A DNA stretch of 64,000 bases from Agrypnia vestita. Lineage: Eukaryota; Arthropoda; Insecta; Trichoptera; Phryganeidae. The stretch spans positions 1 through 64,000 of the forward strand of contig JADDOH010011101.1 of the NCBI GenBank assembly GCA_016648135.1, read 5' to 3'. The notes under the pieces were generated by a model. The model searched no databases and had not been told where the DNA came from. It was given only the letters and a program-made list of their open reading frames with translations. Below, one piece after another: positions 10,086 to 60,705 of the stretch. The position numbers and the translations under genes were made by a program. Each line of letters begins with the position of its first letter. Within the stretch, counting starts at the first letter, position 1.

Positions 10086-10180
10086 CTATTAAGTACACCC
10101 TGACGAAGGAACGTTGTTTCCGAAACCGGTTGGTTTTTACCAAAAATTAGGTGGTGGTAAACTAAGTTAATTCATTTAAT
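10085..10180 (+). mobile_element. Penelope-type terminal repeat with hammerhead-like core
   Basis: CTGACGA (10100-10106), then a small stem GGAAC/GTTTCC, then GAAAC (ending 10126), matching the hammerhead core CUGANGA-stem II-GAAA. A GGTGGTAAACTAAGTT tail follows, as in other Penelope ends in this window. Confidence 0.55.
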
Positions 10181-10224
10181 TATATTTATAATAAATAACC
10201 ACAAAGCAACAGCAAAATACAATA

Positions 10225-10460
10225 GCAGGCATTAAATTTCTTTATAGTCTATAAATTTTTTATTTCTAGACTTACTTCTAACTGCTGCTCATGAATAACA
10301 ATAAAGAAATCAGAACAGATTAAAAATATATACCAATGATTACGTAAGCATAGGAGGGGGGAGTAAGAGCTTTGCTTACTTTTGCTGACAAGTGGCAGGG
10401 GGGGGGGGGGGGTAAAAATTACTAAAATTCTGCTTACGTAATACTTGAATACCTTATGAC
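10225..10460. mobile_element. short element with ATTACGTAAGCA ends
   Basis: Inverted ends ATTACGTAAGCA (10339-10350) and TGCTTACGTAAT (10431-10442) enclose a G-rich core with a run of about 15 G. The flank from 10225 and the core recur at 36830-37020, and a shorter relative is at 36234-36350. Non-coding, MITE-like. Confidence 0.55.
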
Positions 10461-10508
10461 AAATGGTACTAAGACTGACACATTTAGGAAGGGAATCCTT
10501 CTCCTTTT

Positions 10509-10700
10509 GTGCTGAGAGTGCTGCGCTCTTTAACAGGGATGACTCTCAGAGACAGGGCTATGGACCCTGGAATAAGAGGGACCCGTCAGACAGAAGACAT
10601 CGTGAGATGGGTCAGGAAGAGATGGCGGCGGCGGTACTCGAAAAACCATCAAAGAATTTCCCTTGTGGTTGCCCACAATATAACCGTGAAACATCGCATG
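10509..10700 (+). pseudogene. LINE (RTE-like) fragment
   Basis: One frame reads GMTLRDRAMDPGIRGTRQTE then DIVRWVRKRWRRRYSKN. It resembles the 'G.SLRDR..NE.IR..T...DI......KWRWAGH' segment near the end of RTE-type reverse transcriptases. The frame continues to 10886 but loses any resemblance. Both ends of the RT are missing. Confidence 0.4.
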
Positions 10701-10867
10701 CCAGGAAGACTATCAGAAAATGGAAAGATAGCAGCCTCTCCACTTTCCAAGAAGACGGCTCTCGCTCAAGAACAGATCAATGATCTGGAACAAGTGATAG
10801 AGGGAAAAGTCCCCGAAAATATTGTAACATCAAATAAAGTAAAACATAGTTGGTTTCAACTTAATTT

Positions 10868-11756
10868 AAAAAAAAATAACCCATAAAAACTAAGTTTTTA
10901 TTTTACTCCCTTTCTTTGTAAATTAAGTTTACCATCATGTAATTAAATAATCGATTGACTGAAAATGAAACATGTCTAGAAAAATATCTATGCCAAAAAT
11001 CTCTAAAAATATCTCTTAATCTCCATTTGAATTTTATTTTCGTTTTATTTCCTCTTACATTCTTTTGGCGAATGAAAATCTTAACAATTAAAGACGAATT
11101 AAAACATAACACTAAACTTACAGGAATTTAATATATTTCTAAAATGTCAGATGTTTTTAGCTTTGATAAGGCACTTCATGCTTTGAAGATTAAATTCTAA
11201 AAACATTTGTCAGTCAATCTAATCAAGATTTGATACATTCATTTATCAGCAATATCGTACCTTATGAATTTCGAGCGTCTAATGATTTAAACTAGTCTGA
11301 ATCACATTTGAGCAATGTAGAATTATTCAAAACTAAGCAGAAATCTAAAGGAAATAAATAATTATTTGATTTCTTCCCAAAAATCCGAAGTGTGCTGTCA
11401 TCTGTGAACCTATTGTCATAAATTTTTGAAACTCGTAGTGAAGTACCTATTATACCGACGGAGTAATTCAAATTTTAAATATTCCGTGACGTCATCAAGC
11501 CGCCGTTGGTAGTAATCAAACTTTTCTGTAATGATTCAAATCGGAAAAAAAAAACATTAAAATTTCTAAAAATCCAAAATTATACTATAATTATTAAATT
11601 TTTTAACGAAAATTTGATATATCATTTTTATCGTTGCCACGAGTCTGCTTCCAAAGCTTCAGCTCGATTGGATCACGGGAAAAGGGTTAAAAATCGATCC
11701 AAAGTTTTTTCGTCAGACAAGCAAACAGACTCTACGAGTTAAAAGAAAGGGAGTAT
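10868..11756 (+). mobile_element. repeat family M, long copy
   Basis: Starts with AACCCATAAAAACTAAGTTT and TTTACTCCCTTTCTTTG, and ends AAAAGAAAGGGAGTA. Contains CAGCTCGATTGGATCACGGG and AAAAATCGATCC, shared with copies at 7090, 30748 and 42195. Short frames inside are not conserved between copies. Confidence 0.6.
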
Positions 11757-12540
11757 TAATAATCATGGAATTCCACAGTTTCAATTCAAATTCCTCACAC
11801 AAAGATATAATAACATCGACATATTGTTCTAAAATTCAGAGAAAAATTCTGTTTTTTGAAATGTTTTGTTTGTTTCTGTTGTTTGTTGTTTTATTGTGCT
11901 TTTCTAATGGACTTTTAGCTAGGCTTGTATTTAAATACGGCACGATGAACATTTCCTTTGATAAACAAATCTGAGATAATTCTCGCGTCAGAAAAAATCG
12001 TAAACAAGTCTCCCTTGCTATTTGGGGTGCTATTCTCGATTTATCATCGGTTTGATTTTTTTTTATAATTTCAATGTAAAAAATGCACAAATATAAGTTA
12101 AAATGAATTAATTATTTATTTTAGGCAAAAAAAATGTCATTGCAAAGCGTATTTTAAAATAACTTAGTAGTAATGTATAATCTTTTCATCGAGAGAAGAA
12201 AATGTTTGAATAACAAATCAATAAATTTGACATAAAATTGAAACGCAAATAGCAGGCGAATAAAATTGTAATAATCTAAATATATTAGGTTCATGCATAA
12301 TTGTCAGAAGTTTTTAAATATTAAATTATAAGGTTACAAAAAGAAACTCCAACATGATATAAAAAACTCAATATTGTAAATAAAATAAAACTAATAAATG
12401 GATTTTGTCCATTTTTGGACAACATTTTTAGACAAAATTCTGTAATTGTGTTCTCAGAAAATACATATTAAAATATTGAAAAGATATATACTAGTCTTAA
12501 AAAAAGGAATTAATAAATTTAAAGTATATTTTCAGATATA
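11757..12540. other. no gene seen
   Basis: AT-rich sequence; overlapping short frames at 11765-12090 on both strands show no recognisable domain. No clear repeat. Confidence 0.35.
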
Positions 12541-12890
12541 TGCGTACCTACACTAAAAGGAATAATTCTTAAAATTCCACTTTAAAAATATAAGTATCAT
12601 TACCAGATACAAAATCTGTATATGTTATATCATGGGAAGGACTATAGATATCTCTAGCATAGTCTGTTTGAATATACGAAAGAAACTGATTAAGAACATA
12701 AAGGTACTATACGATTTTCAAAAAATTATAAATGTGTGGATGTTCTTACGATGGACTTGTATAAAGTTGTATAAAATTGTATAAAGTTGCATTGTATAAA
12801 GAGTAAATCGCTAAGTCAGCGCATACAATTTTTAAGCACTTTATAAAGTCTTCCATTCACGTTTCGCATATAATATTTTCTTAATCATTA
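12541..12890. repeat. diverged remnants of repeat family G
   Basis: Pieces such as GATATCTCTAGCATAGTCTG and GTGGATGTTCTTACGATGGA resemble family G copies at 17330, 18045, 46340 and 50854. Too decayed to set ends. Confidence 0.35.
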
Positions 12891-12899
12891 ACTATTATT

Positions 12900-15833: not shown

Positions 15834-15835
15834 AT

Positions 15836-18200: not shown

Positions 18201-18639
18201 CGTCCATTAAATGTTGTAAAGTAAAGTACGGTTTTTATGTGTCATGTTTTTAATTTTAAAATAACTATGCTATATTCATCTTTGTAAATGTTACTTCAGT
18301 ACCTATGTATGTGTTTTAATTAATCTAACTTTAGTATATTTCCGTATTTTCGATAATATTGTAGAATTGAAACCAAGTGAATTAAAATGGTTTTAATCCA
18401 CAAATTTGGCTGTTTAAAAAAATGAAATACAGGGTTAACTCCGCTGGCATTAAAAATAATTTAATTATGTCTTAAAAACTGTTTACATCGCAAAATTATT
18501 TATTAGCTAAGTGCCGGCTGTAATTATTTTAAATATTTCACCTTATATAATGATAAAAGGTTTTCTCAAACTATTGTCAAGAATATGATTGATAACTGTA
18601 AACGAAAACTCTAAATAATTAAATATTAAAAAAAAAGAT

Positions 18640-19130
18640 TTATTATTTGTATATATCTACTTTTTTTTTTATTAATTACACCAACATGTTTCAGAAAAAC
18701 CTTTCCATCGTCAGGGTGTTGTATAACTGTCAAAATATTAGAATGAAATGTCTTTCTAAATTATTTGAAAAATTATTTTTAAATATTATTACTGAAGTTC
18801 TTGAGTAGTGGCAATTATTAGAAAAATTTTCAGAATTGGGCTAGTAGTTTAATTTAATTGATTATTAATACTTTTTTTACTATTACATGTTTACTATTTC
18901 TAATGATTCTAAATTATTCAATTTCAGACCAAAATTATTCATGTGTTAAATAGAAAGTCCAAAATTTTTATAAAAAAAAAAACATATTAAAAAATAATTT
19001 AGAAAAACAAGAAACAAAAGACATTTCATTCTGATATTTTGACAGTTATACAACACCCTGACGATGGAAAGATTTTTCTGAAACATGTTGGTGTAAATAA
19101 TTAAATAAAAAAATAGATATATACAAATAA
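18640..19130. mobile_element. inverted pair of Penelope-type ends
   Basis: The minus-strand motif at 18689-18714 (CTGACGA...GAAA) and the plus-strand motif at 19058-19084 belong to one subfamily; each is followed by CATGTTGGTGTAA. Between them, read on the minus strand, is the end of a Penelope ORF (ATTGGGCTAGTAGTTAAATT region), also found on the plus strand at 25200-25290. The two ends face away from each other, an arrangement also seen at 28625-29015. Confidence 0.55.
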
Positions 19131-19419
19131 TATAATCAATAGTTTTTAAAAACGTCAATCTACAATGTTGCTGAATCAATTGGAAAAAAATAAATTAAAT
19201 ATTTACCTATCGCGTCTCAATCCGTTATAAAACTAAAAGAAGAACTTATTAATGGCCCTTTTCAATGCTTTATAAATTCATTTCATCAATTTACGAGACG
19301 CTTTCATAAAAAATATAATAATATAAATAATTAGTTAGTCATAATTCGGCGGAGTATCATATTATATTTATACATTAAAAATAATATTGTTTCATACTCC
19401 ACTTTAAAAATTTAGAGGT

Positions 19420-23728: not shown

Positions 23729-26700
23729 CTAGAAATGTAAAATAAAACATTAAGAGCGTTAGAGTGGATGTCAGTCAATCTGGGAATTACAGAAGATTCG
23801 GAGTGCCCGGCATCCGCTAAAGCGGCTTTTATAAATGACGTCACGTGAAAATTTAACCCTCCCCCGCGTGATAGGGTGTTACCCCATGCCATATGCTCCT
23901 CCCCCATCACAGAACCAAAATTTCCCTTTAGTTAAAGGAAAACGGTTGGCTTATTAATTATAATAACAATTATTAATAACTAGCTGTTCGTACACGACGT
24001 TACACGGGTTAAGGATTAAGTTGAAAATAAATTTATGGGGGGAAACAAAGGTTCGATTCGAACGGTATAGATTTGCATCAATATATCAAGGGGAGGGAGG
24101 ATTTGCATCAATATATGTTGCGAAAATATTTCAGCGGGAGGGAAAGGGGTAAAAGAATAGGGGGGAAATGTCGCCTACGTTACCCGCCGAGTCTTAAAGA
24201 ATGTGTTTCCAAATTTTGAGTCCGATCGGTCGAACGGTACAGATTTGTATCGAAAGTATATCAGGGGGAGGGGAAGGGGTATAAGAATGGGGGGGAAATG
24301 TCGCCTACGTTACCCGCCGAGTCCTAAAAAATACGTTTTCAAATTTTGAGTCCGAATTTCTATCGGAAATATATCAGGGGTTAAGGAATAGGGGGGAAAT
24401 GTATCCTATGTTACCCGTCGGGTCTTAAAGCATAAGTATGCAAAAATTTGAGTCGAATCGGATAAACGGTGAAGATTTGTATAGAAAACAGACAGACAGA
24501 CAGTTGGGTTTCTTTAAGAACAAATTCAAATTGTGTGATGTCATTTTTTTAAAAGACCTCCCCACTCTTCCTGTACCTAATAGATTTACAATTCCACTAA
24601 TTCTTTCTCTACCTTAAACCTGTGTCAGAAGACGACTCTAAGGCGTCTTCTATAAAGGATGGATGAAAAGGTTTACTGGAGATATATTTTTACCACGAAA
24701 GCAATAGCCATTGTTAAAATGAAGCGTGCTGACAGAAAATACTGATAATTAAAAAAATAATCGGCATGCATAAATCTTAATTTATATTTAAATATTATCA
24801 ATAGGAATATACTTTGTTTTCACCACTAATTTGTCATAATTACCAACATTTTTCGGGGTCAATGATCCTTTCATCAGGATAGAATGTTCTCATATATCAA
24901 TCAGTAGGTGTACTAAAAATACCATACTAAAAATTAAAAAACAAAAGTACAATTACCAAAGTACAGACGATATCAAAAATTATTGCCAATGCTCCGTTGT
25001 TTCATGGTAAAGGAACCATTGTCACTAAAACATATTGGTTTTTTCAACAAATTAGTGGTGAAAACAATGTACATTCTTTTTTTGTCTGAATAATCGTGGT
25101 TTTTCTGAATTTTCAAATCATTTATTAGAAAATGGTCACGGTTTTGATAAAAATTTAGGACTTTTATTTTACAAATAAATAATTTTGGTCTGAAATTGAA
25201 TAATTTAGAATCATTAGAAATTAGTAAAGCATGTAATAGTAAATATAATATTATTAATAATCAATTAAATTTAACTACTAGCCCAATTCTAATTTTTTTC
25301 CAATAATTGCGAGTAATCAATAACCAACAATAATATTTTAAAATAAATTTTCAAATAATATAGAAAAACAAAAGACATTATTCATTTTGATATTTTGATA
25401 TTTTGATATTACACTTTCACTTTACCGAGCTTGACTGAAGCAAACACTCCACATCAAAAATAATTGATTACTTATGGGTACGCCTATTTTAAACCAAGGG
25501 ACTAATAAAATTACACAAGTGTTGGTTTATTTACTTTGCGGCGTCCACGGGCAGGATGAGATCCAAACAAGTGATGGACGTGATGCAGCAGTAGTCCGCG
25601 ATGGTGACCTGATCCCCCCCCATCCACTGGTACTTGGTGAGGTAGGCCTCCCCGAACCCGTAAGCCTCCTCTATGTCGGTCAATTTCTGCTGAGCGATGG
25701 TCGTCTCGCCGTAGTAAAGCACCGGTCGCTGAACAAATAAGCGATTTACATTACTTTATTATGTGAGTGCCTACCTGCTTTATATTGACCTTTTTACAAT
25801 GTGATTTCCCATTGTGCCAAATATATACCATTCATTCTTTGCGGTATTCGAATATAATAATAATAATTGAAAGTGAAAATCGATAAAAGTATCCCAAAAA
25901 AGTAGGATTACTAAATAAAATTTCGTCAATGCTCACATAGTATGAAAAACAGCAGATTTCAGGAGATTTTTTTGTGTATCCATAAAAAGTTGACCTACGG
26001 CTGATTATGACTTGACTAAACATTTTCTGTGTATAGTTTTCTGGGATGTTCTGACGTGTATATGTGACCTCTCTGACCTCTCTGGCTTCGGTACGGTATT
26101 GCAAGGCAATACTTAACCTACACTTCAACACACACCCATCACATCAGCCTTGATGATGGACCCTGGAATGGGATACGAAACGTTGCCAGAGAGGTCACAT
26201 AAACATGGCAGAATATCCCAGAAAACTATACACAGAAGATTCTGAACGGCCGTAAAAACCTAAGGACATTTTTGACTAAACATTGTACTGTATACCTACA
26301 CGTTGAGTAATTTCGTCACATGTTTTCGATGTTTATAGCGTTGGTTGGACATAATTATTAACTAAAAAAAAAATTAACAATCTTTATATAAAACCACAGT
26401 GATTGTTTTTAAACGTCCACCTCTCTCTAATGTTCATCACTTTTATGTGTCTTAATTATAATAATTTCTCAGAATTCTCAAACCAGATAATAGAGACAGG
26501 CCACATGTTAATAAAAGAAAATGCAATTGAAATTTCACATTAAATATTGGAAATCAAAAAGTCGCTCAGCATTAAATATATATTACTTAAAAAAAACAAT
26601 TGAATTTAACGAATAACACATTATCAAATATATCCCCCATTTCAATGTTTCCCTGACAGATTTCACTTCCATCTTACGTATGATTTCTTAATAACCTTAA

Positions 26701-29700
26701 TTTGTATCTTTAAATAATTTTAATTTATGGTTTGAATAACTGTGCGTCTGTCCTGACGAAGATACAGTGGTGTCGAAATCGATAGCCGTTTAAAAACAAT
26801 CGATGAGAGACCGCTCCACTAAACCATAGTAACCGTACAAGTTGTATTTTTGCCTGCGTTTAAAAAAATCTGAAATGGGGACTTGGCATAATATTTTGTA
26901 TTATTTACAAAGAGGTTAACTACAGAAATTTCTCCTGTCGGTTGTTTAAGAACTGAGACATTCTTTCTCAAACAATATATTTGTGGTGAAGAAAATCGCA
27001 AAAAAGTGTCCTTACTTGGAAGAATAAGAAGACATAAATAAAAATACAAGTTTATTAATTAATATACAATACTATAATTCTCCCGCACATAGATTATTGT
27101 TCCAGTATATTATTTGTAATTAACGAAGGAATGATAAAGAAACTACAAATAGTACAAAACAGAGCGATGCGCATAATACTGAAGTGTAATAGGAGAACTA
27201 AAATAACAAAAATGTTGAATGCCCTAGGACTGGAAACTGTAAATCAAAGAATAATATATAATGTAATGATCCAAATATTTAAAATTAAACATGGATTAGT
27301 ACCCAAATACTTTGATGACAGGATGAAGATGAATAAGGATTTGGATTCCTACAATACAAGAGGAAGCGACAACATAAGACTACCAAAGAAAAATAAAAAC
27401 ACCTCACAAAATTCTATGATGTATAAAGGTATAAAAATCTTCGATAGCCTGCCAAAGGAAATTCAAAACATGGAGAATATAAGGAGGTTTAAACTGAATT
27501 GCAAAAATTATATTATAAAAACTTGATTAGATGGAATGCAACATGTCCAGGTGAAATCGTGTATTAGCCCACACAATATTATGTGTGGAACTAAATTATT
27601 AAGAAAAAATAAATAAATTAAAACCAAGGTATAGTGCATAGTTAGAGAAGAATAATAAATGAACTGACGAAATAGCTTAGCAGATTAACTTACAACAACG
27701 TTCTTGAACCTGTTGAAGAGAGTGCTGGAGTCGTAATGCAGTCTGCTGTCAATGAGAGCTCTCTTCTTGGGGTCCTTCGGGTACAGAGAGTCGTCCTTGC
27801 CGTGCACGGTCACCAGGTAAGCGGCGATGGCGTGGCTGGAAAAATAGTTAAAGATACAATGAACACGTTGTTAGAAGTTCGAGTAAGACCGGGCAGTTAT
27901 TACGAAGGGAACTTCTACTGCTGCGATAAAGTAAAAAGAAGCATCCATGGCTTCCGGAAGCGATCTATAAGAGTAGGTAAGCGGCTCTTAGCTTCTTGGA
28001 ACTGACGTGCGTGTTGAGGCGGTCGTAGCTATGTACAGATCGACACCGCGCGCCAGGAACTTATACTGCTGCGATAACGAAAAAAGAAGTATCCGTGGCT
28101 TCATCAAGCGATCTGGAAGAGTAGGTAAGCGGCTCTAAATATTTTGAAACTGAGTGTGACTGAAACTGAAAAATTTATATCACAATTATTATCACATTAT
28201 CAAGAAATGGTAAGTAGAAGGAATTACGCACTGTCCGAATCTATTGTAATATGTCACATTGGAAGAACATTATGCAACGCTCTAGAATAGTACAATAATC
28301 TAAAAAGTTCGGGAGGCGCCTGGAGTAAGCTAAAAGTGACGAAAACCTTCTCGTAATCACGAGAAAGGAAAAAAATAATCTAGGAGGTTCAAAATTCAAC
28401 AGCGTATATAAGACAGCACCGCGTCACGCAAGAGAGGGTTGTCTTGACATTTCGATCGGTACGAAGAGTACCTGCAGAACGATGGCAGTGGCGCGGTCGT
28501 GGAATTTCGGAGCGACAGATATCGAGCGAAATAATCAAACGAGTTCTTACGAAACAAATAAATGCGACTATTATAAGCGAGAATTGGACGGGATGTTCTG
28601 GCGAATGTTAAATAAAGTATAATTAATAAAAATAAACTTTTCACCACTTCTCTATTGAAAATATCAACATGTTTCAGAGCCCATGGCCTCTTCGTCAGGA
28701 TACAATTGTATACTAACAAAATTAAATTAAAAAACGAAGTATAGTCAATCAAAATATTTAAAAAAATTATATATAGAAAATGAATAATAATAAAGTACCT
28801 ACTTAACACGAAAATAAATTTAAAAGATAACTATTTGTAAAAAGGACCTGGTTATTAACTATTAACACTTTTCCTTATTTCCAGAATTGCTAATATATCA
28901 TACTGTGATTTTTAAATTTAATTTTGTTTGTATACAATTGTATCCTGACGAAGGGGCCATGGGCTCTGAAACATGTTGATATTTTCAATAGAGTAGTGGT
29001 GAAAACTAAGTTTATTTTTATTTATACAAAAATTATTTTGCTATTTTTGAAGAAGAAGTTAAACAAAGTGTTCATATATGAGAAATGGCTTATGAAATAG
29101 AGAGATTTAAAGAATAGCGCCAAGTTAATTCGTGTTAAGTGACTTTGACCATTTAGTAATAAATTAATTTCCAGTATTTTCGTTTGTCGTCCGCACTCAC
29201 ACTGTGACAATATTATTCCAATTTATACTATTAAAAATTATACTATAAAGAAGTTACGGACGTTGTACGAAGTTACGGCGGACGGACGGACAGACAACGA
29301 AATTATTATAAATATTCTGTAACATAAATATTTAATTTTTAATTTCGATCTTTTTGCGTAAAAGTCACGCATCAATACATTCGCTGCACTCATCTGAAAT
29401 TTACCGTCCACAAGTATTATCTAAGTGTTATGAAAGTTATTATTATTTGCAAAGTGCTGTTGATATAAATGACCTCATCCATTTATATCTCAGCACTTTG
29501 CGTGAGATCGCACTTTTTAATCTTTATACAGCATCTTATCTGTTATCGTGCTACCTAGCGTTTAAAAAATTATTAAGGAATTATCTTTTGAAAAATCGCA
29601 ATTTCACATACGAAATGTGATCACATTTTATAATTGATATATAATTTTAAAAAAGCAGGTAGTTAGAACTTATTTAAAATTAATTATACTTGGTTTACTT

Positions 29701-38045: not shown

Positions 38046-38159
38046 CAAGGAATTATCGCCACGATGAAATCTTGGGTACATCACAAAAAAAAAATAAAAA
38101 GGTGATTTACTAATTCCAAAGAATTCTTAACTGTGTATATCTACAGGATCTGAAAATTC

Positions 38160-38680
38160 CAAACCACGCTTTGCTGGTGTCCTTTGATGTAATCTATTTA
38201 TTCCCGAGCATTCCAATTAATGAAAGTAAAACAATTATCTCTTATTTGTTAAATTCTTAGAATTTGTCAAAAGACCTTGTTTATGATTTAACATTGTTAT
38301 TTGATATCATATTTAAACAGAACTATTTTCAATTCAATTACACAATATTTAAACAGAAAGATGGCTTAGCGATGAGGAGTAGCATAAGCCCTTGTAGATA
38401 TTTTCGTTAATAATTAAGAAAAAAAAAATTTAATAGTGGTGCACTTTTATTAAAAAATGTATTTTGTTGGAAAAGATATGTTGACGACATATTATTGGAC
38501 AGAAAGACAATTGAATATATTTTTAAATTTTCTCAATAAATTACATGCAAGCATTCAGTTCACATTAGAAATAGGTAAGGATAAGATTTTAAATTTAAAT
38601 TTGACTTTGACAAATAATAAAATAGAATTCAACATTTTTAGAAAAGACAAGTACACATATATCGTGATACAGTATTAATC
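38160..38680 (+). pseudogene. Penelope reverse transcriptase domain (broken)
   Basis: Finger-palm motifs are visible despite breaks: LVSFDVIYLFPSIPI, FKQKDGLAMRSS-ISPC and the catalytic YVDD (38469-38480, in the frame of 'RYVDDILL'). GLAMGS has become GLAMRS. A frame at 38457-38678 carries the region after YVDD with a frameshift at its beginning. Confidence 0.7.
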
Positions 38681-38739
38681 GAATCATCCCTTTTCCCAAA
38701 AACTCGAGGCGTTTCACCCCATAATACATAGATTAATTA

Positions 38740-38940
38740 CAATTCCTTTATCTGTTCTTAATTATTCTGAATTAAATCTTATTAATCAGATAGCATAAAA
38801 TAATGGTTATTCTACTAAATTAATATAATGAATCATAGATTAATTACAATTCCTTTATCTGTTCTTAATTATTCATCTGAATTAAATCTTATTAAACAGA
38901 TAGCATATAATAATGGTTATTCTACTAAATTAATAGATAA
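38740..38940. repeat. tandem duplication of about 85 bp inside the Penelope element
   Basis: GATTAATTACAATTCCTTTA ... TGGTTATTCTACTAAATTAAT occurs at about 38732-38824 and again at 38830-38930. The second copy is closer to intact (ATTCATCTGAATT). Confidence 0.75.
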
Positions 38941-39144
38941 TTTATTAAATAAAAAGATAAAACAACATTTTTTAAACAACATATTTATCCCGAGACAAAA
39001 GATATAAATAAACAATGGCGTAGAATTTTATTTGTCGATAACAATTTGGCAAAAATAATAACAAAAAATATTCCTAATTCAATTCAGGGGGCCTTTTATA
39101 CGAGTAACAAATTAAAAAAAATATATACTAAATAACAAGGATAG

Positions 39145-39420
39145 TGATAATCCTATCATGAAATCAGGAGTTTATAGACTTAATTGTAACGATTGTGATA
39201 ATTTTTATATTGGTAAAACAAAAAGAAATTTTTAATCAAGGGTTAAAGAACATATCAAAGCTTTAACTAACAACGTTGGGTCGGATTTTGCAAAACACTT
39301 AATTGAATATGACCATATATTTAACATTAATACACGTTAAAATTTTTTACATGTTAGTTATAAGATGCCGCAAATAAACAATTTAGAAATACTTGAAGTA
39401 AATAAAAAAAAATGTTAATA
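39145..39420 (+). pseudogene. Penelope GIY-YIG endonuclease domain (broken)
   Basis: Reads SGVYRLNCNDCDNFYIGKTK-RNF-stop-SRVKEHIKALTNN, then FAKHLIEYDHIFNINTR. GVY and FYIG are the paired strands of the GIY-YIG fold, and R in SR.KEH is the expected catalytic arginine. Two stops interrupt it. Confidence 0.75.
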
Positions 39421-39604
39421 TTAATTCAAATACAATAAACACTCAGACTAAATTTGTGCATAACCCTCTATTGAATATTTTTCCACTTAAGATTCCATCC
39501 CCTTCAGGTGACATTCCTAATAATTAACACCTCAGACCCCCCCTCCCCTCACCGTCCCCTCATCCTCCTCTTTAACTTTTTCAATTTTTAGTACACAAAC
39601 AATC

Positions 39605-39631
39605 CCGATGAAGAGAACATTGTTCTCGAAA
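39605..39631 (+). ncRNA. hammerhead ribozyme-like core of the Penelope element
   Basis: CCGATGA, perfect 6-bp stem GAGAAC-att-GTTCTC, then GAAAC. The first conserved block has C for U (CCGATGA instead of CUGAUGA), so cleavage would probably be impaired. Fifteen sites of this type were seen in the window. Confidence 0.55.
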
Positions 39632-39719
39632 CATGTAGATTATATAATCTAATAAAGTGGTGAAAACAAAGTGATTTGTGTTATATTTTAATTTTTATAA
39701 TAAAAATACTGTTTTTTAA

Positions 39720-43559: not shown

Positions 43560-43880
43560 ACTTTGTGGAAATCCATTATTAACAAATTATGAAATAAAAC
43601 CCTGTTTTTTTCTATTTTATTTTTGAGACTTGTTACACTACATGTTTCGGAAACGTCCGTTTCCTTCTTCAGGTGAGTTAAGACTGAGGTATGTGGGAGT
43701 GGTTGTCTGGTGTGTGGGTTGTGGATTCAGTAGAAGTGGAGGGGGTATCTAGGTGGTGGGAGACCGGGAACATTGTAAGAAGGGGTGATGTGAAGGGTTG
43801 TACTTGATTATTGATTATGTTATTTGTGGTGTTTAGGTTGTTTAGGTTTTTTCGAATATAAAATTGTGGAAAAAGACAAA
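43560..43880 (-). mobile_element. Penelope-type 3' end with hammerhead-like core
   Basis: Minus strand: CTGAAGA, a perfect stem GGAAAC-ggac-GTTTCC, then GAAACATGTAGTG (43645-43672). A purine/pyrimidine-skewed stretch, GGGGGTATCTAGGTGGTGGG, lies upstream, comparable to the C-rich stretch before the core of the 38090-39690 element. Confidence 0.55.
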
Positions 43881-44199
43881 GTTCAGCGTTTTATTTCATA
43901 ATTTATTTATGAGATATTCTTTACTCAGAATAAAAATCTAGACAGGCTCAAATCTTTCCAATAATGGGTCCCGAGTGTTAAAGTCGCTATGTTCCGCATT
44001 AGAATTTCTTATTTGTTTCATGTGTGTATCGATCATGAAACTACTTCATGGTGTAGTTATTCTTAACAGAATTCTAGACAACTGGACTTGTTTTTTTTCC
44101 AGTTTTTATTTAAATTTCACTTTTTACGCCATCTCGTTTTTTGATTTTTTAAATTTATTTCCATCACCGCACCGTTTTTTTTCGTGACCGCCGAAATGA

Positions 44200-44305
44200 A
44201 GCGTTATTTGGTCATGGCTGCTTGAACATTTACCATTCACAATCAAGACAGGAATATAGTCCTGGGAAGTTATTAATGTTTTCCAACCTTGTATATGTGG
44301 TGTAA
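44200..44305 (+). repeat. repeat family F, terminal piece
   Basis: CACAATCAAGACAGGAATATAGTCCTGG and TTAATGTTTTCCAACCTTG. Confidence 0.55.
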
Positions 44306-44680
44306 ACAAAGTAAATTTTTATTAATCATAGTAATAATGTAACTGCAAAATCATTTTGCTCTTATTGAAAAAAATTCATTTATATTTCAATGTTGCAAAA
44401 GTATTACAAGTAGTTCTAGTTTGTAAAATATGAATTATCTTTTCACGTTATCTCCCAAACTGATAGGAAAGTTACTATGTTTGTAATACAGTTTGAAAGG
44501 GAAAATTGATGATATTTTGACGATAATGATGCCATATTTAGTTGCTGGAAATTCACGAGTATTTTTTGATGTAGGATTTATCGCTCACATTGTTTGCCCG
44601 AATTTTCAGATTTTCATAATAAAAACACAATTCTTTCATACACAGTAAAATGGTTTATTTTATTTTCTGTATCGCCTACA
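44306..44680. other. no gene seen
   Basis: AT-rich spacer with no recognisable landmark. Confidence 0.35.
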
Positions 44681-45499: not shown

Positions 45500-45765
45500 A
45501 AAATTACTTAATTTTCACCACTTTAATAGATGAAATATCCGCACATTTCGAAAACAATATTCTCATATTCAGGATAACTAGTGCACTAACATGAAATATA
45601 GATTAACATTGTGAGAGGGTTATAGAAAAAAGTTGGAAGGGGAAGGGGAGTAAGAAGAGATAATTAGGGAATTACATGTACATTAGAAGGGGAATGATGG
45701 TTAAGTAAAATAATATTCAATAGAGGATTGTTTACAAATTTTACCTAACTATTACTATTTGATAA
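45500..45765 (-). mobile_element. Penelope-type 3' end, degenerate core
   Basis: On the minus strand the TAAAGTGGTGAAAA tail (45515-45535) and GAAA...CTGA (45546-45572) are in the usual order, but CUGANGA is broken. Further upstream is AAATTTGTAAACAATCCTCTATTGAATATT, the same text that precedes the terminal repeat at 39450. Confidence 0.55.
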
Positions 45766-45846
45766 ATAATAAAATATATTAATATATTTCATAAAGAAAT
45801 ACCCACATATTTATAAATACAAAATACTGATTTAGAACATAATATA

Positions 45847-46330
45847 CAAGGTTATTTGGAAAACATTAAAAACCTCGCAGGACTATATTCCTGTCTTCAA
45901 TAGATATGGAGATAAGCGACATAAAAATTTGCATTTTTTTTCTGAATTATTTTTTGTAAAACGTTGAACTATCATTACAGTAACTGATATAGAATACGAA
46001 AAATTCATTTCCTTTAATACAAGTCAAATAAAATAATAAAAACCTTCCAATTTCAATTGGAATTTCTGCAGGGTTTTAATCATTTTACTTAACTTATATT
46101 GAAAAAAAGAATTCTTCGAAATCAATTAGCAATGTAATTATAGTTCAAAGTTTTGTAAAATATAAGTCAGAAATATTGAAAAAAAAATGCAAACTTTGAT
46201 ATTGCATAACTCCAAGAGGACTGACATTGGGTGATGGCCATGGCTGCTTAGACATTTTGGACTCATAATCAAGGCAGGAATATGGTCCTGCGAGGTTTAT
46301 TATGTTTTTCAGACAATGCTGTATACAATA
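45847..46330. mobile_element. repeat family F, fold-back copy
   Basis: Left arm, reversed: GGTTATTTGGAAAACATTAAAAACCTCGCAGGACTATATTCCTG. Right arm, forward: ACTCATAATCAAGGCAGGAATATGGTCCTGCGAGG. Arms of about 240 bp meet near 46090, a giant palindrome. A third, single-arm copy follows at 46490-46680. Confidence 0.65.
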
Positions 46331-46489
46331 TTAAAAAATTTGATAATGCGTGGATGTTCTTAGGGTGGAATTGGAAAACGTTGCATTGTGCAAAATGATC
46401 ACTGACTCATATTGGTCATAAGCCCTGGGTTATATCCTTAAAGACTTTACATCTTAGTAACTCACAGGCGAATACGAGTTACTTAGATG

Positions 46490-46680
46490 GAATGTTTCTG
46501 CAATAATAGTCCAACGCTTTGTAAAAAATAAGTCACAATTATTGAAAAAAAATGCAAACTTTGATTTCGCATATCTCCACAAATATTGATGTAAGGTCAC
46601 GGTTTATTGAACATTTACGACTCATAATCAAGGCAGGAATATAGTCCTGCGAGGTTATTAATGTTTTCCAAATAACCCTG
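46490..46680 (+). repeat. repeat family F, single arm
   Basis: From AATAGTCCAACGCTTTGTAA through CGACTCATAATCAAGGCAGG to CCAAATAACCCTG. Confidence 0.65.
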
Positions 46681-46729
46681 AGGTATAAAAGTAGTTGAAA
46701 CTAAGTATTCATTATTTTATTTATAATTG

Positions 46730-49839: not shown

Positions 49840-49990
49840 AACGGTTGTTTGATGTTCTATGTATTCTGCCGTATGTATCTGACCTCTCTGGCCGACGTTA
49901 CGGATCTCATTGCAGGATCCATCATCAGGGCTGATTTTCATTGTCTTATTTACCGTTGAATGTCCAAGTGGCCAAAACCGGGGTAGTGGC
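49840..49990 (-). mobile_element. dispersed element end with hammerhead-like core
   Basis: Minus strand: CTGATGA, perfect stem GGATC...GATCC, then GTAA in place of GAAA (49898-49928), followed by CGTCGGCCAGAGAGGTCAG. Same subfamily as the inverted repeat at 25980-26290. Confidence 0.5.
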
Positions 49991-52194: not shown

Positions 52195-52590
52195 CTTTTT
52201 TACTGAAAAAAATTCAACATGTTTCAAAGCTAATAATGATTGTGATTATTTTTGTATAGGAAAAACATACAAATTATACAGAATCACAGTTTGATAAATT
52301 AGAAATTTTGGAAATAAGAAAAAGTGTTAATAGTAAATTGAATATTATAAATAACCAGGTCCTTTTTACAAATAGTTATCTTTTAAATTTATTTTCATGT
52401 TAAAGGTACTTTATTATTATTCATTTTCCATGTATAATTTTTTAATATTTTCATTACCTGTACTTCTATTTTTAAATTTAATTTTGTACATTTGTTATCC
52501 TGATGAAGAAGCTATTGGCTATGAAACATGTTGAATTTTTTTCAATAGAAAAGTGGTATATACAAAGATAATTTCTATAAATTATAATTA
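52195..52590 (+). mobile_element. Penelope-like 3' end
   Basis: Starts in a GIY-YIG remnant (NNDCDYFCIGKTYK), then KLEILEIRKSVNSKLNIINN, 3' UTR, hammerhead-like core CTGATGA-[AAGC..GGCT]-GAAAC (52500-52526), and the AGTGGTATATACAAAG tail. Same subfamily as 28625-29015. Confidence 0.65.
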
Positions 52591-52889
52591 TAATGTCACC
52601 ACAAAATAATTTTGCTGTGTTTGAAGAAGTTAAAAAAAATGTTTTAAATTTATTTAGTAAACTGATTCTTGATTCCAGGTACTTTATATAATAAACTTAT
52701 TGGTTCACTTTATTTGTTTTCAAATCAACGTCACAGGAGCTACCATATATATATTTTTTTTAATATATATATTTTTTATTTATTTTTTTGTTTTACTGTT
52801 CTTTTGTTATCTCTTAAAACTCTGTCTCTCTCCTTCAACTACTAAAAACTTAATATATAGTAATAATGTCAATAGAAAATTACTGTCGG

Positions 52890-53470
52890 TATTGTGATAA
52901 ATCATTCCGGTGTAAATAAACTAAATTATAATGACTGCTCAGCATTTTATAAAACGGCAAATAATTTCAATTAACGGAACTAAAAGTAAAGGAACATTTA
53001 AGATGTCTAAAAAATAATAACCTCTCAAAAACAGGCAAATAATTTAACTTTATTGAGATTATCCATATAAATAATAAAGGCCTTAGATTAGAAAACACAG
53101 AAATATTAAAAATCAAGAAATGTCTGAACTCTAAAGCCAATATGTATGCAATTATTAATAAATTATAAATATGTTTTATTCTACTTTGTAATACACACAA
53201 TATAAGTTATTCAATTACTGCTATAGTTTCGAGAGGAGCAGTCCCTCTCATAATGAATCAGTTGAATTTCACGAATAATCCATTGTTTGATATATTCCCC
53301 ATTTCGGTGTCGACTTGTCAATTACCCCCACAATAACTGTGGCCACGCCCCCGTTCAATAATGAACCTGTTTACCAAAATGGGTAATGAATAGTTAGTAT
53401 GCTTCCTTCCTTCCTGATGAAGATACAGTTGTAACGAAACTGGTAGACGTAAAGTTACTCCAAGCGGTTT
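52890..53470 (+). mobile_element. Penelope-like 3' end, second subfamily
   Basis: GIY-YIG remnant (KLNYNDCSAFYKTANN), then LRLENTEILKIKKCLNSKAN, a C-rich 3' UTR and a core CTGATGA-[GATAC..GTAAC]-GAAAC (53414-53439). Related to 26460-26810. Confidence 0.6.
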
Positions 53471-56800: not shown

Positions 56801-59800
56801 ACTGCTGGCTCACATCCTCAATCTGCCACAGTACTTTGTTTAGAAAAAATCATTATACTGGGTGCGCCGTTCCCACGATATTTGAATTCAGGGTTAGGCG
56901 TTAGAGATAGCTAAATATGTCAGTAAGACTTTCATAAATGCTGCGGCAAGGCTTATATTTAAGGCATCCAAGTTCTCGCGGATATCCTCAATGCCGAAGC
57001 AGCTACATTGGCTTCGCCTGCCGGAGCGGATAAATTTCAAACTCTCTCTGGTGGCGCACAAAAGTCTTCAAAGGAAAGCACCACAATATTTGATCGACCT
57101 CTGTATCCCAGTAAATATCACTGGAAGACGGCTCACACCGCGATCAGCTAAATCGGAGGCACTCTGCAGGCTGGTAGTTTCAAGGAGACCTGGAGCCACC
57201 AAGTTTGCGGAACGTGCTTTCAACTATGTGGAATCAGCTGCCTCCAGTGTTGCGATCTATGGAGAACCAGGAACTCTTCAAGAAGAGCCTAAAAACTCAT
57301 TTTTTCGGGATGTCGCACCTGTAAAGCGTCTCTTACGCAAAAACGGCGCTATATAAATCAAGGTTCGAGGGTACATATCCGCGGATATATACATATATAT
57401 ACAATTTTACAAATACTATTATAATTATATATTAAATATTTTCGCACAATTTTTTTGCTTCAATCTCCAAATCGACGGCTCCTACGTATAATATCGTAAC
57501 GCACAAAATTCAATTTTACAGGAGAAGGAATTGAACATATTTTCGTCCGGTATAAATCTAAATATTGCCCAATTTTTTTATAATTTCGTTTCAATATTTT
57601 ACTTTATACTGTAGTTTCATTAATAATTACAAAAAAGTCGAAATTATTAACGGTTTTTGTAGAAATGCACATACGATATTATACTTCGGAAAAGACGCGA
57701 CGTAAAATAACGTGTTACATACGATAATTTTCTTATGTTATTTTCTCACGCATATTATCGTAAGTGTTACATACGATAATTATTTATGTTATTTTCCAAC
57801 GTATGTTATCGTAAGTGTTACATACGATAAATATCTTATGTTATTTTCCAACGTATGTTATCGTAAGTGTTACATACAATAAAATTATCTTATGTTATTT
57901 TCCAACGCAAATCATCGTAAGTGTTACATACGATAGTATACTTCGTAAAAAAATATGTGATTATTTGAGATACGATAAAATACGTCCGAAAAAAACGTTA
58001 TTTATCGCAAAATATTTTTTTTTTTTCTTGGAAACAAAGATATAATTAAATACATATGAAATACACAAAAAACTAAAAAACGTCGATTTGTGCGTTACGA
58101 TATTGTACGTAGGAGCCGTCGAAATACTAGGTGAGTGCTTACGATATTGATATAGATCACAGAATTCTGTTGTTGAAGGAGATGAAGCTACGTAGACCAG
58201 ATTATCGGAGATGCGCGCTGTAGCACCTACCAAGAAATGGAGAGGCTGGCAGATGACGGAGAGGAGTGTCGAAAGCGAATGCATGTTGCAGGATGCAAAA
58301 CCTAATTGCTCTAATTAATCTAATAAAAAAATCTTTGCTCGGTTTTTTTAATTTGTTATTTTTTGTCTCCTTCGTCGTCACATTAATATTCTTACTATTT
58401 TCAAACTTAGCTAAACGCTTGTGCTACGCAAATAGGACTAACTTCCTGGTCTGGAGTGAGGTTCGAACCCGCAACCTTTGGATCAAGAGGCGAGAGTATA
58501 AACCACAAAACCGACACTACTCATTATTATGAAATGTTATCTACAGAGCATGTGATAACAAAATGTGCTATTATGCATACATATTTATCAAATATCAATA
58601 TAATGTGTTGATAATTTGTATATTTTATGAAAATTTTAAAGCCATCATGGCCACTTATAATATAATTATTATCAAATACATATACTTAGTATAAATGTCC
58701 GCTTCCACGGTGTAGAAGTTAGTGGGTTACACTATAATTATACTATAATATTACAGTGAGTGTCGAAGTTCCCGGATTCAATTTCCAGTAAGGTAACATG
58801 AAGAAAACTTATTCAAGGCTTTTTTCAATTCATCGCTCAATATTTCTGACTTACTTTTTGTAAAAAGTTAAACTATCATTACACTAACCTATATCAATTC
58901 TGAAAATTCATTTGCCTGAATACAAGTCGAATGAAATGATAAAAACCTTGTAGAGTTTTTTCACAAGGTTTTTATAATTTTATTGCAGTTGCATTAGCTA
59001 ATGTATTTTTCATAATCAGTAAAAGTTACTGTTATGATAGTACTGATAACTTTTTGCAAAAAATTAGTCAGATATATTGGAAAAAAAATTCGAAAATTCT
59101 GATATTGCATATCTCCATAACTATTGATATTAGGTCACGGTCTCTTGAATATTTTCTACTCGTTATAAAGGCAAGAATCCACTTGTAAAGTTTTTTCTAC
59201 AAGCTATGAGACACCCAATACATATTTGAAATTCTATGTATTTATATATTTGTTTTTTTTTTTGGTAAAATTTTTATTTGATAAATGTACAAACTTAAGA
59301 GCGGCTGTATTCAATATAATAAAATTAATACACATTTATATTACTGCTTACCCACTTTTAAATGAGAATTTTATTCTCGTGTTTAAAAGTGGGGGCATTG
59401 TCATATTATATGTATATGTCTATTGTTAATGTAATCATTAGTGTAAGACGTTAGGTTAAATAAGTAAGATATAGAAAAAAAACATTATATTAAATTATAA
59501 AAATTAAGACATTAAATTAGGTAAGTTAGATGTAAACAATACTAGAAGACAAAAATCTAAGACATTAGATTATGTAAATAATGTATCTATAGATATGGCT
59601 GGTTCAAAACAGAAGTAATATTATTAAGACGTCACGTAAGGAAGTCGACTTCCGACCGCATGGAGTAACATTCTTAATAATAATAATCAAATTCCTAATA
59701 TAAATAATAATATTAATAATAAACCACATATCACGAAGCAATTAGAAAATCCAACCTTTTCAACATTGTATAATGACGATAGTAAAGTAAATATACGGAT

Positions 59801-60705
59801 TACTAGAAGTCGAGCAAAACTCATTAGCGGCGTCGCTGGAGAAACCCACTCCTCCACAAACACCTGACGCAGAATTTTTCAAACTTTCACTTGACGATGA
59901 GCTCTGGACCCAAATGCCCTGAAGATGAACAGTGAGATCTGTTCGAAACGTCAGCAGACGACTGGTCCTGACGACCAGAATTTGACGCGGGTTACCCCCA
60001 AAGTAGTTAGAACTAACACATATTGTACCCGTGAAAGCCTTCGATTTAAAAAAAATAAAANNNNNNNNNNNNNNNNNNNNNNNNNNNNNNNNNNNNNNNN
60101 NNNNNNNNNNNNNNNNNNNNNNNNNNNNNNNNNNNNNNNNNNNNNNNNNNNNNNNNNNNNNNNNNNNNNNNNNNNNNNNNNNNNNNNNNNNNNNNNNNNN
60201 NNNNNNNNNNNNNNNNNNNNNNNNNNNNNNNNNNNNNNNNNNNNNNNNNNNNNNNNNNNNNNNNNNNNNNCGAAGGCTTTCACGGGTACAATATGTGTTA
60301 GTTCTAACTATATATATATAGGTACACATAAATAAGGTATAGATATATTTGAAATGAATCCATGCCGCCATTCTGTTGACGTTTCTCTAAACAATCTAAA
60401 GGAAACAGCTTGAAAATGTCTAATCGCTTTCAATTGTATGTTGTCGTGTGTTTATATAAGTTTGATTTCATTTCAAATTTCGGCTTTGGAGGCTTATTGA
60501 CGCCACTATACCCTGGCCAAACAATACAAGTTTTTTGAGCATCGACACAATTTGAAATCTTACAATTACTCCAAGAAGGTTGACGAACAGCGTCGACGAG
60601 TCAAAGTGCAGCCTGTGGTCTACGATGGCCCTCCTGCGAGGATCTTTAGGGTACAGATCATCAGTTTTGCCGTAGGCGGAGACCAGGTACCCAGCAATAG
60701 CGTGA
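53748..60705 (-). CDS. glutathione S-transferase gene C (3' part only)
   Basis: Exons 3, 4 and 5 (60564-60705, 56116-56309, 53748-53868) join in frame and code for residues 67-218 of a delta/epsilon-type GST. Lengths 142 and 194 match gene B exactly. Exons 1-2, with the catalytic serine, must lie right of base 64000; no sequence like them was found at 60706-64000. The visible part has DSHAI-type .SHAIAGYL, LYPKDPRRRAIVD, and the helical-domain N-cap T156-I-A-D159. The last exon (NCKTLPYYEEANGIGAKKFG) differs strongly from gene B, suggesting a different substrate pocket edge. Introns carry three LTRs, an L2-like LINE and an assembly gap. Confidence 0.9.
53880..54258. other. intronic sequence, no feature seen
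   Basis: AT-rich intron 4 of GST gene C; no landmark except the start of an LTR-like block at 54230. Confidence 0.4.
54259..54629 (-). mobile_element. solo LTR-like sequence (possibly BEL/Pao)
   Basis: Minus strand: starts TGTGGAATTCGTACC, promoter-like TTATATAAAAGGAGG, AATAAATCATC signal, ends TTTTCCGCCGCA. It is followed by TGACGGTGGTGACCCG, which resembles the primer-binding region of BEL/Pao elements. No internal genes. Confidence 0.5.
54630..55243. other. intronic sequence, no feature seen
   Basis: Intron 4 of GST gene C. Nothing recognisable. Confidence 0.35.
55244..55841 (+). mobile_element. solo LTR (gypsy-like), uninterrupted
   Basis: Starts TGTTACGAGGATAAGG. Contains CTATAAATACGACACGCG (promoter-like) and AGTGAATAAAGTG, and ends GCAGCCACGACACG. 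ATAC on both sides (55240-55243, 55842-55845) may be the target duplication, although this makes the LTR end CG rather than CA. Sister of the split copy at 14723-15833. A minus-strand frame inside (55301-55543) is not a gene. Confidence 0.6.
56116..56309 (-). CDS. GST gene C, exon 4
   Basis: 194 nt after a TTCCAG acceptor and before a GTAGGT donor. It encodes RPLMTKEATSISESSWQRVG ... ILEKYLEEQSWLAGPDMTIA, then DLCC.ATVSSLHELIPITPD. Noticeably GC-rich compared with its surroundings, which opens spurious frames on both strands. Confidence 0.95.
56389..56870 (+). mobile_element. LTR-like sequence
   Basis: Shares CTCAAGCGTCCCAAACCAGC, GAGGGATTAGCGCCC, AATAAACTTCTGG and TTCGCGAATAC, in order, with the LTR at 8768-9264 (other strand). 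It inserted about 80 bp upstream of GST gene C exon 4, in its intron 3. Ends are uncertain. Confidence 0.45.
56935..57360 (+). pseudogene. L2/CR1-like LINE, C-terminus and 3' end
   Basis: Reads AARLIFKASKFSRISSMPKQ-LHWLRLPERINFKLSLVAHK then SLQRKAPQYL..L. This is the 'LHWLP...RI.FK...L..K.L....P.YL' region of L2/CR1 reverse transcriptases. A frameshift near 57225 moves to MWNQLPPVLRSMENQELFKK. The closing GTAAAGCG...GGCGCTATATAAATC (57320-57360) is the typical L2 3' tail. Confidence 0.75.
57472..58122. mobile_element. 651-bp inverted-repeat element with internal tandem repeats
   Basis: Outer inverted ends TCGACGGCTCCTACGTA and ATATCGTAACGCAC (about 34 bp, one or two mismatches) at 57472-57505 and 58090-58122. 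Inside is an array of five 51-54-bp units (57712-57945), each starting GTGTTACATACGAT and ending TTATCGTAA. No transposase; the frames inside derive from the repeats. Confidence 0.75.
57712..57945. repeat. tandem array, 5 x about 52 bp
   Basis: Units start at 57712, 57764, 57815, 57867 and 57921. Each holds CATACGATAA and TTATCGTAA, partial reverse complements, so every unit can form a hairpin. Confidence 0.85.
58379..58523 (-). repeat. tRNA-derived SINE, copy 2
   Basis: Minus strand: tRNA-like head GTCGGTTTTGTGGTTTATAC ... GGTTGCGGGTTCGAACCTCA (B box GGTTCGAACCT), then a body shared with 50249-50348. Second, better preserved copy of this SINE. Confidence 0.6.
58820..59220. repeat. repeat family F, fold-back copy
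   Basis: Left arm has CAATATTTCTGACTTACTTT and AACTATCATTACAC; the right arm has GTTATGATAGTACTGATAAC and AATTAGTCAGATATATTG. The centre is the hairpin AAAACCTTG...CAAGGTTTTT. Confidence 0.6.
59351..59393. repeat. strong 43-nt hairpin
   Basis: CCCACTTTTAAA pairs perfectly with TTTAAAAGTGGG, and the inner GAGAAT pairs with ATTCTC around a TTT loop. Confidence 0.8.
59620..60055 (+). mobile_element. Penelope-type terminal region beside the gap
   Basis: Hammerhead-like core CTGAAGA-[GAACA..TGTTC]-GAAAC at 59919-59948, with a perfect stem. After it come CGTCAGCAGACGACTGGTCC and GTTAGAACTAACACATATTG, then the gap. Confidence 0.5.
60061..60270. other. assembly gap (210 N)
   Basis: Unsequenced. 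The 38-40 bases on the left (GTTAGAACTAACACATATTG...AAGCCTTCG) reappear as the exact reverse complement on the right, so the gap lies inside a palindrome. Confidence 0.99.
60564..60705 (-). CDS. GST gene C, exon 3
   Basis: 142 nt after a TTTCAG acceptor and before a GTAAGA donor. It completes the Ser67 codon and encodes HAIAGYLVSAYGKTDDLYPK, DPRRRAIVDHRLHFDSSTLF and VNLLGVI. Same length and phase as gene B exon 3. Confidence 0.95.

Follow-up and report, generated by a model that had tools for sequence, protein, structure and literature searches.

The stretch of DNA analysed here, hereafter the window, comprises 64,000 nt of contig JADDOH010011101.1 from the trichopteran insect Agrypnia vestita. 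It carries a set of hammerhead ribozyme motifs. Our best explanation for them, to which we assign a probability of about 0.85, is that they belong to abundant Penelope-like retrotransposons (Penelope-like elements, PLEs), which most likely insert by paired initiation on both target strands. In every inverted insertion whose ends could be read, one outer end is short and the other long, usually with a target duplication; paired two-strand initiation accounts for this more readily than plain self-priming or a DNA transposon would. PLE hammerheads, their dimers and inverted pseudo-long terminal repeats (pseudo-LTRs) are already known. Strict pairing of ends, which was not found stated or counted in the open literature examined, represents the most informative new regularity.

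Hammerhead motifs in the window

The bare pattern CTGANGA-N6-30-GAAA occurs 14 times in the window, compared with a mean of 2.5 and a maximum of 7 in 100 dinucleotide shuffles. Three of these matches (5665, 17021(-) and 54754) lack a perfect-core hammerhead fold by descriptor and are absent from the list of the first-pass annotation. A stricter initial descriptor detected 6 folds, against 0.073 per shuffle (150 shuffles). The relaxed descriptor, in which all three stems must accompany the core but one extra base before stem II is tolerated, returned nine perfect-core full folds (10100, 18714-, 19058, 26753, 28698-, 28945, 43672-, 52500 and 53414), against 0.033 per shuffle at a score of at least 12 (60 shuffles). 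Site 39605, with one core base changed, scores 27, and none of 60 shuffles reaches 22. The type I hammerhead core (CUGANGA ... GAAA, N-U-H before the cleavage site) is thus present with all three stems in nine perfect sites and one variant. Folds at 17028- and 2643, each with one changed core base, are weaker and close to chance level.

A covariance model (R1) was trained on 10 window sites, with 43628-43679(-) and 45529-45579(-) held out. Both were recovered, the former with E 6.7e-8 and the latter, which is decayed, with E 0.0016. Two weak matches, 24997-25047(+) (E 0.37) and 52205-52266(-) (E 0.44), coincide with inverted partner arms that had not been listed before, and R1 gives no match at 26149, 49898(-) and 59919. 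The descriptor and R1 were designed on these same sites; independent support comes from shuffles, held-out sites and genome-wide controls only.

The first-pass annotation had listed 15 hammerhead-like cores belonging to several subfamilies. Several subfamilies are indeed present; the 15 cores are not all alike. Twelve belong to one main family, in which 10 are well preserved and two (24851, 45546) decayed; at 24851(-) the core is intact and stems II and III contain mismatches. Site 59919 represents a second class. The remaining two, 26149 and 49898(-), are degenerate, and their broken cores resemble by eye an intact-core copy at genome locus L052, position 3951(-).

Fold and covariation

A site begins at its 5' end with one stem I strand, followed by CUGANGA and a single extra base. 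Next come stem II (about 4-6 pairs), GAA and a hexamer that is self-complementary and starts from A15.1; H17 (U or A) and the other stem I strand complete the site. The cleavage triplet at intact window sites is GUU or GUA. Over 67 distinct cores, stem II pairs at 4.15 of 5 positions when the extra base is allowed for and at 2.76 without it.

In an alignment of ten sites on the hammerhead fold, pairing reaches 86.9% of cells, against 69.4% in shuffles. Double-change cells number 25 against 9.0 in shuffles, and structures slid along the alignment give 2 to 11. Changes on both sides are seen in 3 of 5 pairs of stem I, 4 of 5 of stem II and, counting the middle pair, 2 of 3 of stem III. Stem II pairing despite differing sequence had been read earlier as the covariation of a selected RNA fold. 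The compensatory changes at the ten aligned sites uphold both parts of this claim, and the strict genome matches reported below also speak for the selected fold.

In the better-preserved window sites the stem III hexamer is ACATGT, ACCGGT, ATCGAT or ACTGGT (one G-T pair). Among 100 genome copies listed, its middle bases are CG in 46, AT in 32 and TA in 14, so that 92 are self-complementary and 8 are not; the same holds for 59 of 67 distinct cores among the copies listed. Because two such bases cannot pair inside one hairpin, their complementarity points to pairing between ribozymes. The hexamer appears too short to close as a hairpin, and the active ribozyme would most likely be formed by two copies paired through stem III. 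Self-complementarity in 92 of the 100 copies favours selection for such pairing. Such hammerheads are already known to have a palindromic stem III and to be cleaved as dimers (PMC3088659, PMC6466107, PMC7761336).

Penelope-like coding context

Readable copies contain reverse transcriptase (RT) and GIY-YIG coding upstream of the hammerhead, and a further start codon follows 60-65 nt beyond the cleavage site. An open reading frame (ORF) of 415 aa in locus L094 consists of an RT end (RVT_1, E 6.3e-7, 29.8 bits, cut-off 29.6) followed by a GIY-YIG segment (PF01541, E 0.0015, under the curated cut-off); it stops about 80 nt before the hammerhead. This ORF retrieved 97 homologues at E up to 0.001, many with RVT_1 and 8 of the 97 with PF01541. 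Those with a named source include Harmonia, Nesidiocoris, Pyrocoelia, Coccinella and Haematobia proteins. In the window, three stop-free pieces of the remnant upstream of 39605 match the L094 ORF (BLASTP E 6e-14, 9e-13 and 5e-16), the first being an RT piece at 38261-38407 and the second a GIY-YIG piece. A GIY-YIG motif is found roughly 400-600 nt upstream and on the same strand as the hammerhead in 4 of 30 genome loci listed (L012, L019, L033, L038) and was not seen upstream in the other 26. Judged by these similarities, the L094 ORF and the window piece probably derive from a PLE-type reverse transcriptase, and the C-terminal GIY-YIG endonuclease of PLEs is recognisable in L094, in 8 of its homologues and in the window copy.

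Downstream of the hammerhead there is a conserved tail, then a start codon and about a dozen codons, e.g. MSPQNNFAVFEEVKKNV from 52593 and MSSHKVFSCFEK in L043. This arrangement is the layout of a Penelope pseudo-LTR. It spans the ORF start, its two outer ends lying ahead of the ATG and near codon 12, and shows both inverted arms and 5' truncation. The Penelope-like origin proposed in the first-pass annotation is supported by RT and GIY-YIG coding upstream of the hammerhead at one window site and in several genome copies. That coding remnants precede several window sites is borne out by alignment for 39605 only and by eye for 52500 and 53414.

The second class (GAAACGTC at 59919) has a perfect 6-bp stem II and a weak stem I. 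It also occurs in L051, where the hammerhead at 2849 lies about 100 nt after a different GIY-YIG frame ending at 2750. The L051 frame has no Pfam match; it has homology to a protein of 858 aa that contains RVT_1 and aligns, in its C-terminal part, to the endonuclease of L039. Since the window stretch upstream of 59919 matches the L051 protein weakly (E 0.024), the link between the two sites rests on the DNA 3' of the hammerhead, which by eye is common to both. The 59919 class probably comes from another PLE clade. A third hammerhead-like class (CTGATGACGTTGAATACGACTTCAACGAAACGTC and variants), with long stem I and by eye a good stem II, was seen in L023 (1532(+)), L024 (776(+)) and L030 (2299(-)).

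Abundance and head-to-head arrangement

The pattern CCTGANGAN{11,15}GAAACNNGT has 11,011 matches in the 1.32-Gb assembly, compared with 10 for the reversed pattern. The exact 32-base core with ACTAGT as stem III has 1,145 genome copies and none in the control. These 11,011 strict matches, 1,145 identical cores included, constitute a rich archive of insertion scars.

Among 100 places listed for the general pattern, all 11 neighbouring pairs closer than 1 kb are in minus-then-plus order, i.e. head-to-head, and 19 of 20 neighbouring pairs within 3 kb are so among 100 places listed for the ACTAGT core. Close pairs among the matches listed are thus nearly all head-to-head inverted and not tandem. 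The window itself contains two full inverted pairs, 18714/19058 and 28698/28945; the inverted partner of 24877, 43672 and 52500 is decayed or truncated. L009 and L052 have an identical inverted-arm junction, and therefore an insertion with its inverted arm was itself copied or duplicated.

Pairing of short and long ends

Ends were determined in the young-looking ACTAGT subfamily, in which 62 distinct arms were read outward from the hammerhead. The reference ends at 135, so that "long" means at least 133-135. Homology stops at 90-105, around the start codon, in 38 arms and reaches 133-135, about codon 12, in 24. The script had binned 29 arms as short, 24 as long and 9 as other (100-105); those nine are counted as short. 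Full pairs account for 36 of the arms, 12 more have a partner alignment, and 14 have none, two of them forming the C204 pair.

In each of the 18 full pairs a short outer end is combined with a long one, the two differing by about 40 nt. Hammerhead starts are only 27-47 nt apart in 10 of the 18, and near-perfect palindromes of 209-250 bp with short target duplications occur. A target duplication score of at least 10 is reached in 14 of 18 full pairs, against 0.65% of 306 mismatched-flank controls; the pairs below it are L042, L084 and L085 (9 each) and L086 (8). Duplications are 9-17 bp long and, in all pairs but L085 (11 nt), hence in 17 of 18, start at most 6 nt from the long end. The placing of insertion ends at about 135 rests on these starting points.

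The same pairing was found outside full pairs. The 26 arms that lack a full partner yielded 12 inverted partner alignments. One of these is spurious (L067), another has an unreadable outer end (L075), and the remaining 10 of 10 combine one short and one long end. Six of these 10 partial pairs have a duplication score of at least 10, a set for which there is no control. The 2.7-kb pair of L094 has ends at 135 and 96, a 12-bp duplication, and RT and endonuclease motifs in both arms. In total, 29 of 29 ACTAGT inverted insertions with readable ends (18 + 10 + 1) are short plus long, the probability of which would be near 2e-9 if each arm's end were independent with equal odds.

The combination of one short and one long end extends to eight pairs from other subfamilies, among them the two full pairs of the window; these ends were set by the best flank repeat with an eye check of the start codon and carry less weight. 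A wide-flank duplication search over 14 pairs gave a weak signal: 11 scored at least 10, as did 20% of the mismatched controls, and 5 scored at least 13, as did 1.1% of the controls. Control scores average 8.5. Flanking the window insertion 18628..19192, AATTAAATATT is repeated at 18617-18627 and 19193-19203 with a score of 11, which 10% of mismatched controls reach and which is no proof alone. The repeats beside 28619..29057, GTTAAATAAAGT (28607-28618) and GTTAAACAAAGT (29058-29069), score 8, about the control mean and not significant alone. L008 was left out of the end counts, as the duplication search gave no sensible ends.

Inner edges of partner arms were compared as well. In the other subfamilies (n=8) they lie at 13, 13, 14, 17, 18, 19, 25 and 31 from the hammerhead start, mostly in the loop or 3' strand of stem II; because L009 and L052 have one junction in common, these eight are too few to weigh. 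An apparent boundary of L038 exactly at the cleavage position was rejected, the fuller alignment beginning at 19 instead.

Proposed mechanism and its alternatives

According to the explanation that we prefer, each insertion ends past the hammerhead, near the reading-frame start of the next copy. In multimeric transcripts, dimeric hammerheads would cut unit from unit. Each target strand would prime one cDNA; of the two start sites, which lie on either side of an AC-rich stretch, each would be used once, and the two cDNAs, joined in the middle, would give rise to head-to-head copies with the 9-17 bp target duplication.

Speculatively, the palindromic stem III could also pair two PLE transcripts, with a protein dimer carrying both templates to one target and cDNAs being made from before and after the AC-rich stretch on opposite strands; we regard this extension as improbable. 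If true, the short/long scar would be the mark of a paired template, and the hammerhead would serve twin-strand target-primed reverse transcription as a module that dimerises the RNA and delivers the templates. What hammerheads do in PLEs has been called a mystery in a review (PMC7761336).

Several observations weigh against paired initiation by hammerhead-bearing PLEs or against parts of it. The first-pass annotation had named a scan with Rfam hammerhead models as a check, the absence of hits above threshold counting as refutation. Taken literally, the Rfam models do speak against it: searching the whole window and two short stretches with them gave no hammerhead at E up to 10, probably because stem III has no loop and stem II is preceded by an extra base. 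On our reading of the output, minimum-energy and two-strand folding of isolated sites failed to give the hammerhead, and no single-strand minimum-energy fold had stems I and II together; we give this no weight. Two of five covariation measures are mild (double-change pairs 9 against 6.5, reached by 29 of 500 shuffles; pair types 19 against 16.3, reached by 50 of 500). All GIY-YIG matches are under the Pfam cut-off (E 0.0015-0.022), and the AC-rich stretch folds well in some subfamilies only. Same-strand neighbours of different subfamilies exist (52500/53414, 914 nt apart, and two in L025, found with looser patterns), as do plus-then-minus neighbours in L015 (looser patterns too) and C476. Inner edges of 10 ACTAGT partner arms lie at 4, -24, 42, -9, 31, -7, -18, -20, 41 and -150 relative to the hammerhead start. 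None is exactly at the cleavage site (position 33) and one is within 2 nt; cleavage therefore leaves no visible footprint in that sample. Insertion of the Anolis carolinensis element PAc in vitro did not need hammerhead cleavage (PMC11167929).

The most serious competitor is self-priming, proposed for bdelloid Penelope elements (PMC3846280), in which a single cDNA folds back and copies itself and only one target strand primes. It would agree with the near-perfect palindromes and the closely spaced hammerhead starts in 10 of 18 pairs. The two arms of L094 show no difference over 616 aligned nt, while the copies nearest to them diverge by 0.7-1.1%, which counts for it and thereby against two-strand initiation; the arms of L092 (98.9% identical), on the contrary, are no more alike than other copies. 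A fold-back should match the template end or stop randomly, not at a second RT start site, whereas all readable cases show outer ends that are unequal by about 40 nt. With extension on both strands reported as well (PMC11167929), self-priming seems rather unlikely to us, yet deserves consideration. The palindromes and short target duplications also recall DNA transposons resembling miniature inverted-repeat transposable elements, whose terminal inverted repeats would hold hammerhead-like motifs by coincidence. Such elements are hard to reconcile with unequal ends in every readable case, duplications that vary from 9 to 17 bp, arms with RT plus GIY-YIG (L094) or GIY-YIG coding (L092), and 13 of 62 ACTAGT arms without a partner in the DNA read (about 0.5-1.5 kb upstream), and we consider them extremely unlikely.

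Retrozymes, small non-autonomous tandem repeats whose type I hammerhead lets them propagate as circular RNA, would suit the high copy number, and small repeats with such hammerheads are abundant in animals (PMC7229834). They are expected as tandem direct repeats of 150-450 bp, which were not found among the matches listed: direct neighbours number 0 in the 11 pairs within 1 kb and 0 in the 20 within 3 kb, and the two direct neighbours seen elsewhere (52500/53414; L025) join different subfamilies. Considering also RT and endonuclease coding upstream of the hammerheads and a stem III that would be too short for hairpin closure, we judge an origin from retrozymes very unlikely. Finally, chance matches in AT-rich repeats contribute to the bare pattern, which yields 2.5 matches by chance and includes the three that are not hammerheads by descriptor; full-fold counts, covariation and the genome-wide excess over the reversed pattern already refute chance, and its probability is negligible.

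Features of the window

Table 1. Hammerhead sites and related PLE features in the window
Feature	Position	Strand	Basis or remark
Hammerhead, stem III ACCGGT	10093..10142	+	Descriptor; R1 training site, 54.4 bits
Hammerhead, stem III ACATGT, left arm of inverted pair	18672..18721	-	Descriptor, inverted repeat, R1
Hammerhead, stem III ACATGT, right arm paired with 18672..18721	19051..19100	+	Descriptor, inverted repeat, R1
Head-to-head inverted PLE insertion	18628..19192		Outer ends 88 and 136 nt from hammerhead starts
Decayed hammerhead, core kept, AAATGT instead of stem III (site 24851/24877)	24834..24884	-	R1 training site
Decayed inverted partner arm of 24877	24997..25047	+	nhmmer 25009-25080, E 1.2e-10; R1 E 0.37
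Degenerate relative of GAAACGT-class hammerhead, TTGATGA core (CTTGATGA)	26149..26178	+	By eye
Hammerhead, stem III ATCGAT	26746..26795	+	Descriptor, R1
Hammerhead, left arm of inverted pair	28655..28705	-	Descriptor, inverted repeat, R1
Hammerhead, right arm paired with 28655..28705, top-scoring site	28938..28988	+	Descriptor, inverted repeat, R1
Head-to-head inverted PLE insertion	28619..29057		Outer ends 81 and 114 nt
PLE coding remnant, RT and GIY-YIG endonuclease, frameshifts and stops	38114..39527	+	Upstream of 39605 hammerhead
Hammerhead, CCGATGA core (U4 to C)	39598..39648	+	Descriptor, R1
Hammerhead, longer stem II, held out of R1	43628..43679	-	R1 E 6.7e-8; descriptor
Inverted partner arm of 43672, tail only	43834..43905	+	Weak profile match, E 0.36; 41-nt inverted repeat
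PLE tail without hammerhead	44297..44333	+	nhmmer E 0.0027
Decayed hammerhead, CTGAATA core, held out of R1	45529..45579	-	R1 E 0.0016
Degenerate relative of GAAACGT-class hammerhead, GTAAC	49898..49925	-	By eye
Inverted partner arm of 52500, broken off inside hammerhead	52205..52266	-	Inverted repeat, profile match, R1
Hammerhead, stem III ACATGT	52493..52543	+	Descriptor, R1
Start of next PLE reading frame (MSPQNNFAVFEEVKKNV...) in insertion tail	52593..52660	+	Translation
Hammerhead, stem III ACTGGT	53407..53456	+	Descriptor, R1
Second hammerhead class (GAAACGTC, stem III ACGT)	59919..59951	+	Bare pattern, comparison with L051

Another repeat, most copies of which have a strong hairpin (GCAGGA-ATATAG-TCCTGC), is present at 2843-2936, 44220-44313, 46246-46339, 46605-46698, 45807-45902(-) and 59083-59218. 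Its copies at 44220 and 46605 directly abut a PLE tail of the hammerhead family; the repeat may be mobilised by PLE ends or inserted beside them. After the 59919 hammerhead, a run of N starts near 60061, between exact 40-base inverted repeats (60004-60043 and 60271-60310).

Further, an open frame of 377 aa at 62721-63854(+) corresponds to a mariner-type transposase (Pfam Transposase_1, E 3.7e-26), which was the only result of a Pfam scan of 10 of the 14 window ORFs of at least 120 aa. A tRNA-Ser (GGA) was predicted by ARAGORN at 4891-4965(-) (Rfam tRNA, 45.5 bits). The peptide GEAYLTKYQWMGGDQVTIADYC, encoded at about 25.4-25.7 kb (-), has, by eye, the appearance of an insect glutathione S-transferase exon.

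Comparison with known systems

Minimal type I hammerheads of PLEs were reportedly described by Cervera and de la Pena in 2014 and by Lunse et al. in 2017. Those found here resemble them in core, very short or missing stem III, pseudo-LTR position and proposed cleavage as dimers. They differ in the GUU or GUA triplet, GUC being the usual hammerhead cleavage triplet, in the extra base before stem II, and in close neighbours that, among those listed, are nearly all head-to-head and not tandem. Animal non-LTR retrozymes likewise contain a type I hammerhead in a small repeat (PMC7229834); unlike the elements described here, they consist of small tandem repeats and are considered non-autonomous. Helix III is stable in most of those from invertebrates (PMC7761336).

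Penelope of Adineta vaga, of which a few copies are described in PMC3846280, has inverted pseudo-LTRs, optionally with a tail of about 31 nt on one of them. As here, they are inverted and extend to codon 12 of the ORF; target site duplications there are 8-10 bp. The insertions studied here differ in that 37 of 37 readable inverted ones are short plus long and that full pairs have a hammerhead in both arms.

In PAc, both target strands are cut and extended and a protein dimer is predicted; RT has two start sites around an AC-rich stem loop, and the interval between them is the optional tail of genomic copies (PMC11167929). Common to both systems are the hammerhead near the start codon, internal initiation of reverse transcription at two sites, use of both strands and AT-rich targets. 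The hammerhead here, in contrast, lies 60-65 nt upstream of the start codon, and the start sites, which in PAc were not strand-specific in vitro, appear to be used one each per insertion. The route of PLE insertion is only partly worked out (PMC11167929), and the pairing of ends narrows its mechanism. The scars described here fit the PAc picture and extend it, in that both sites serve a single insertion, each for one of its arms.

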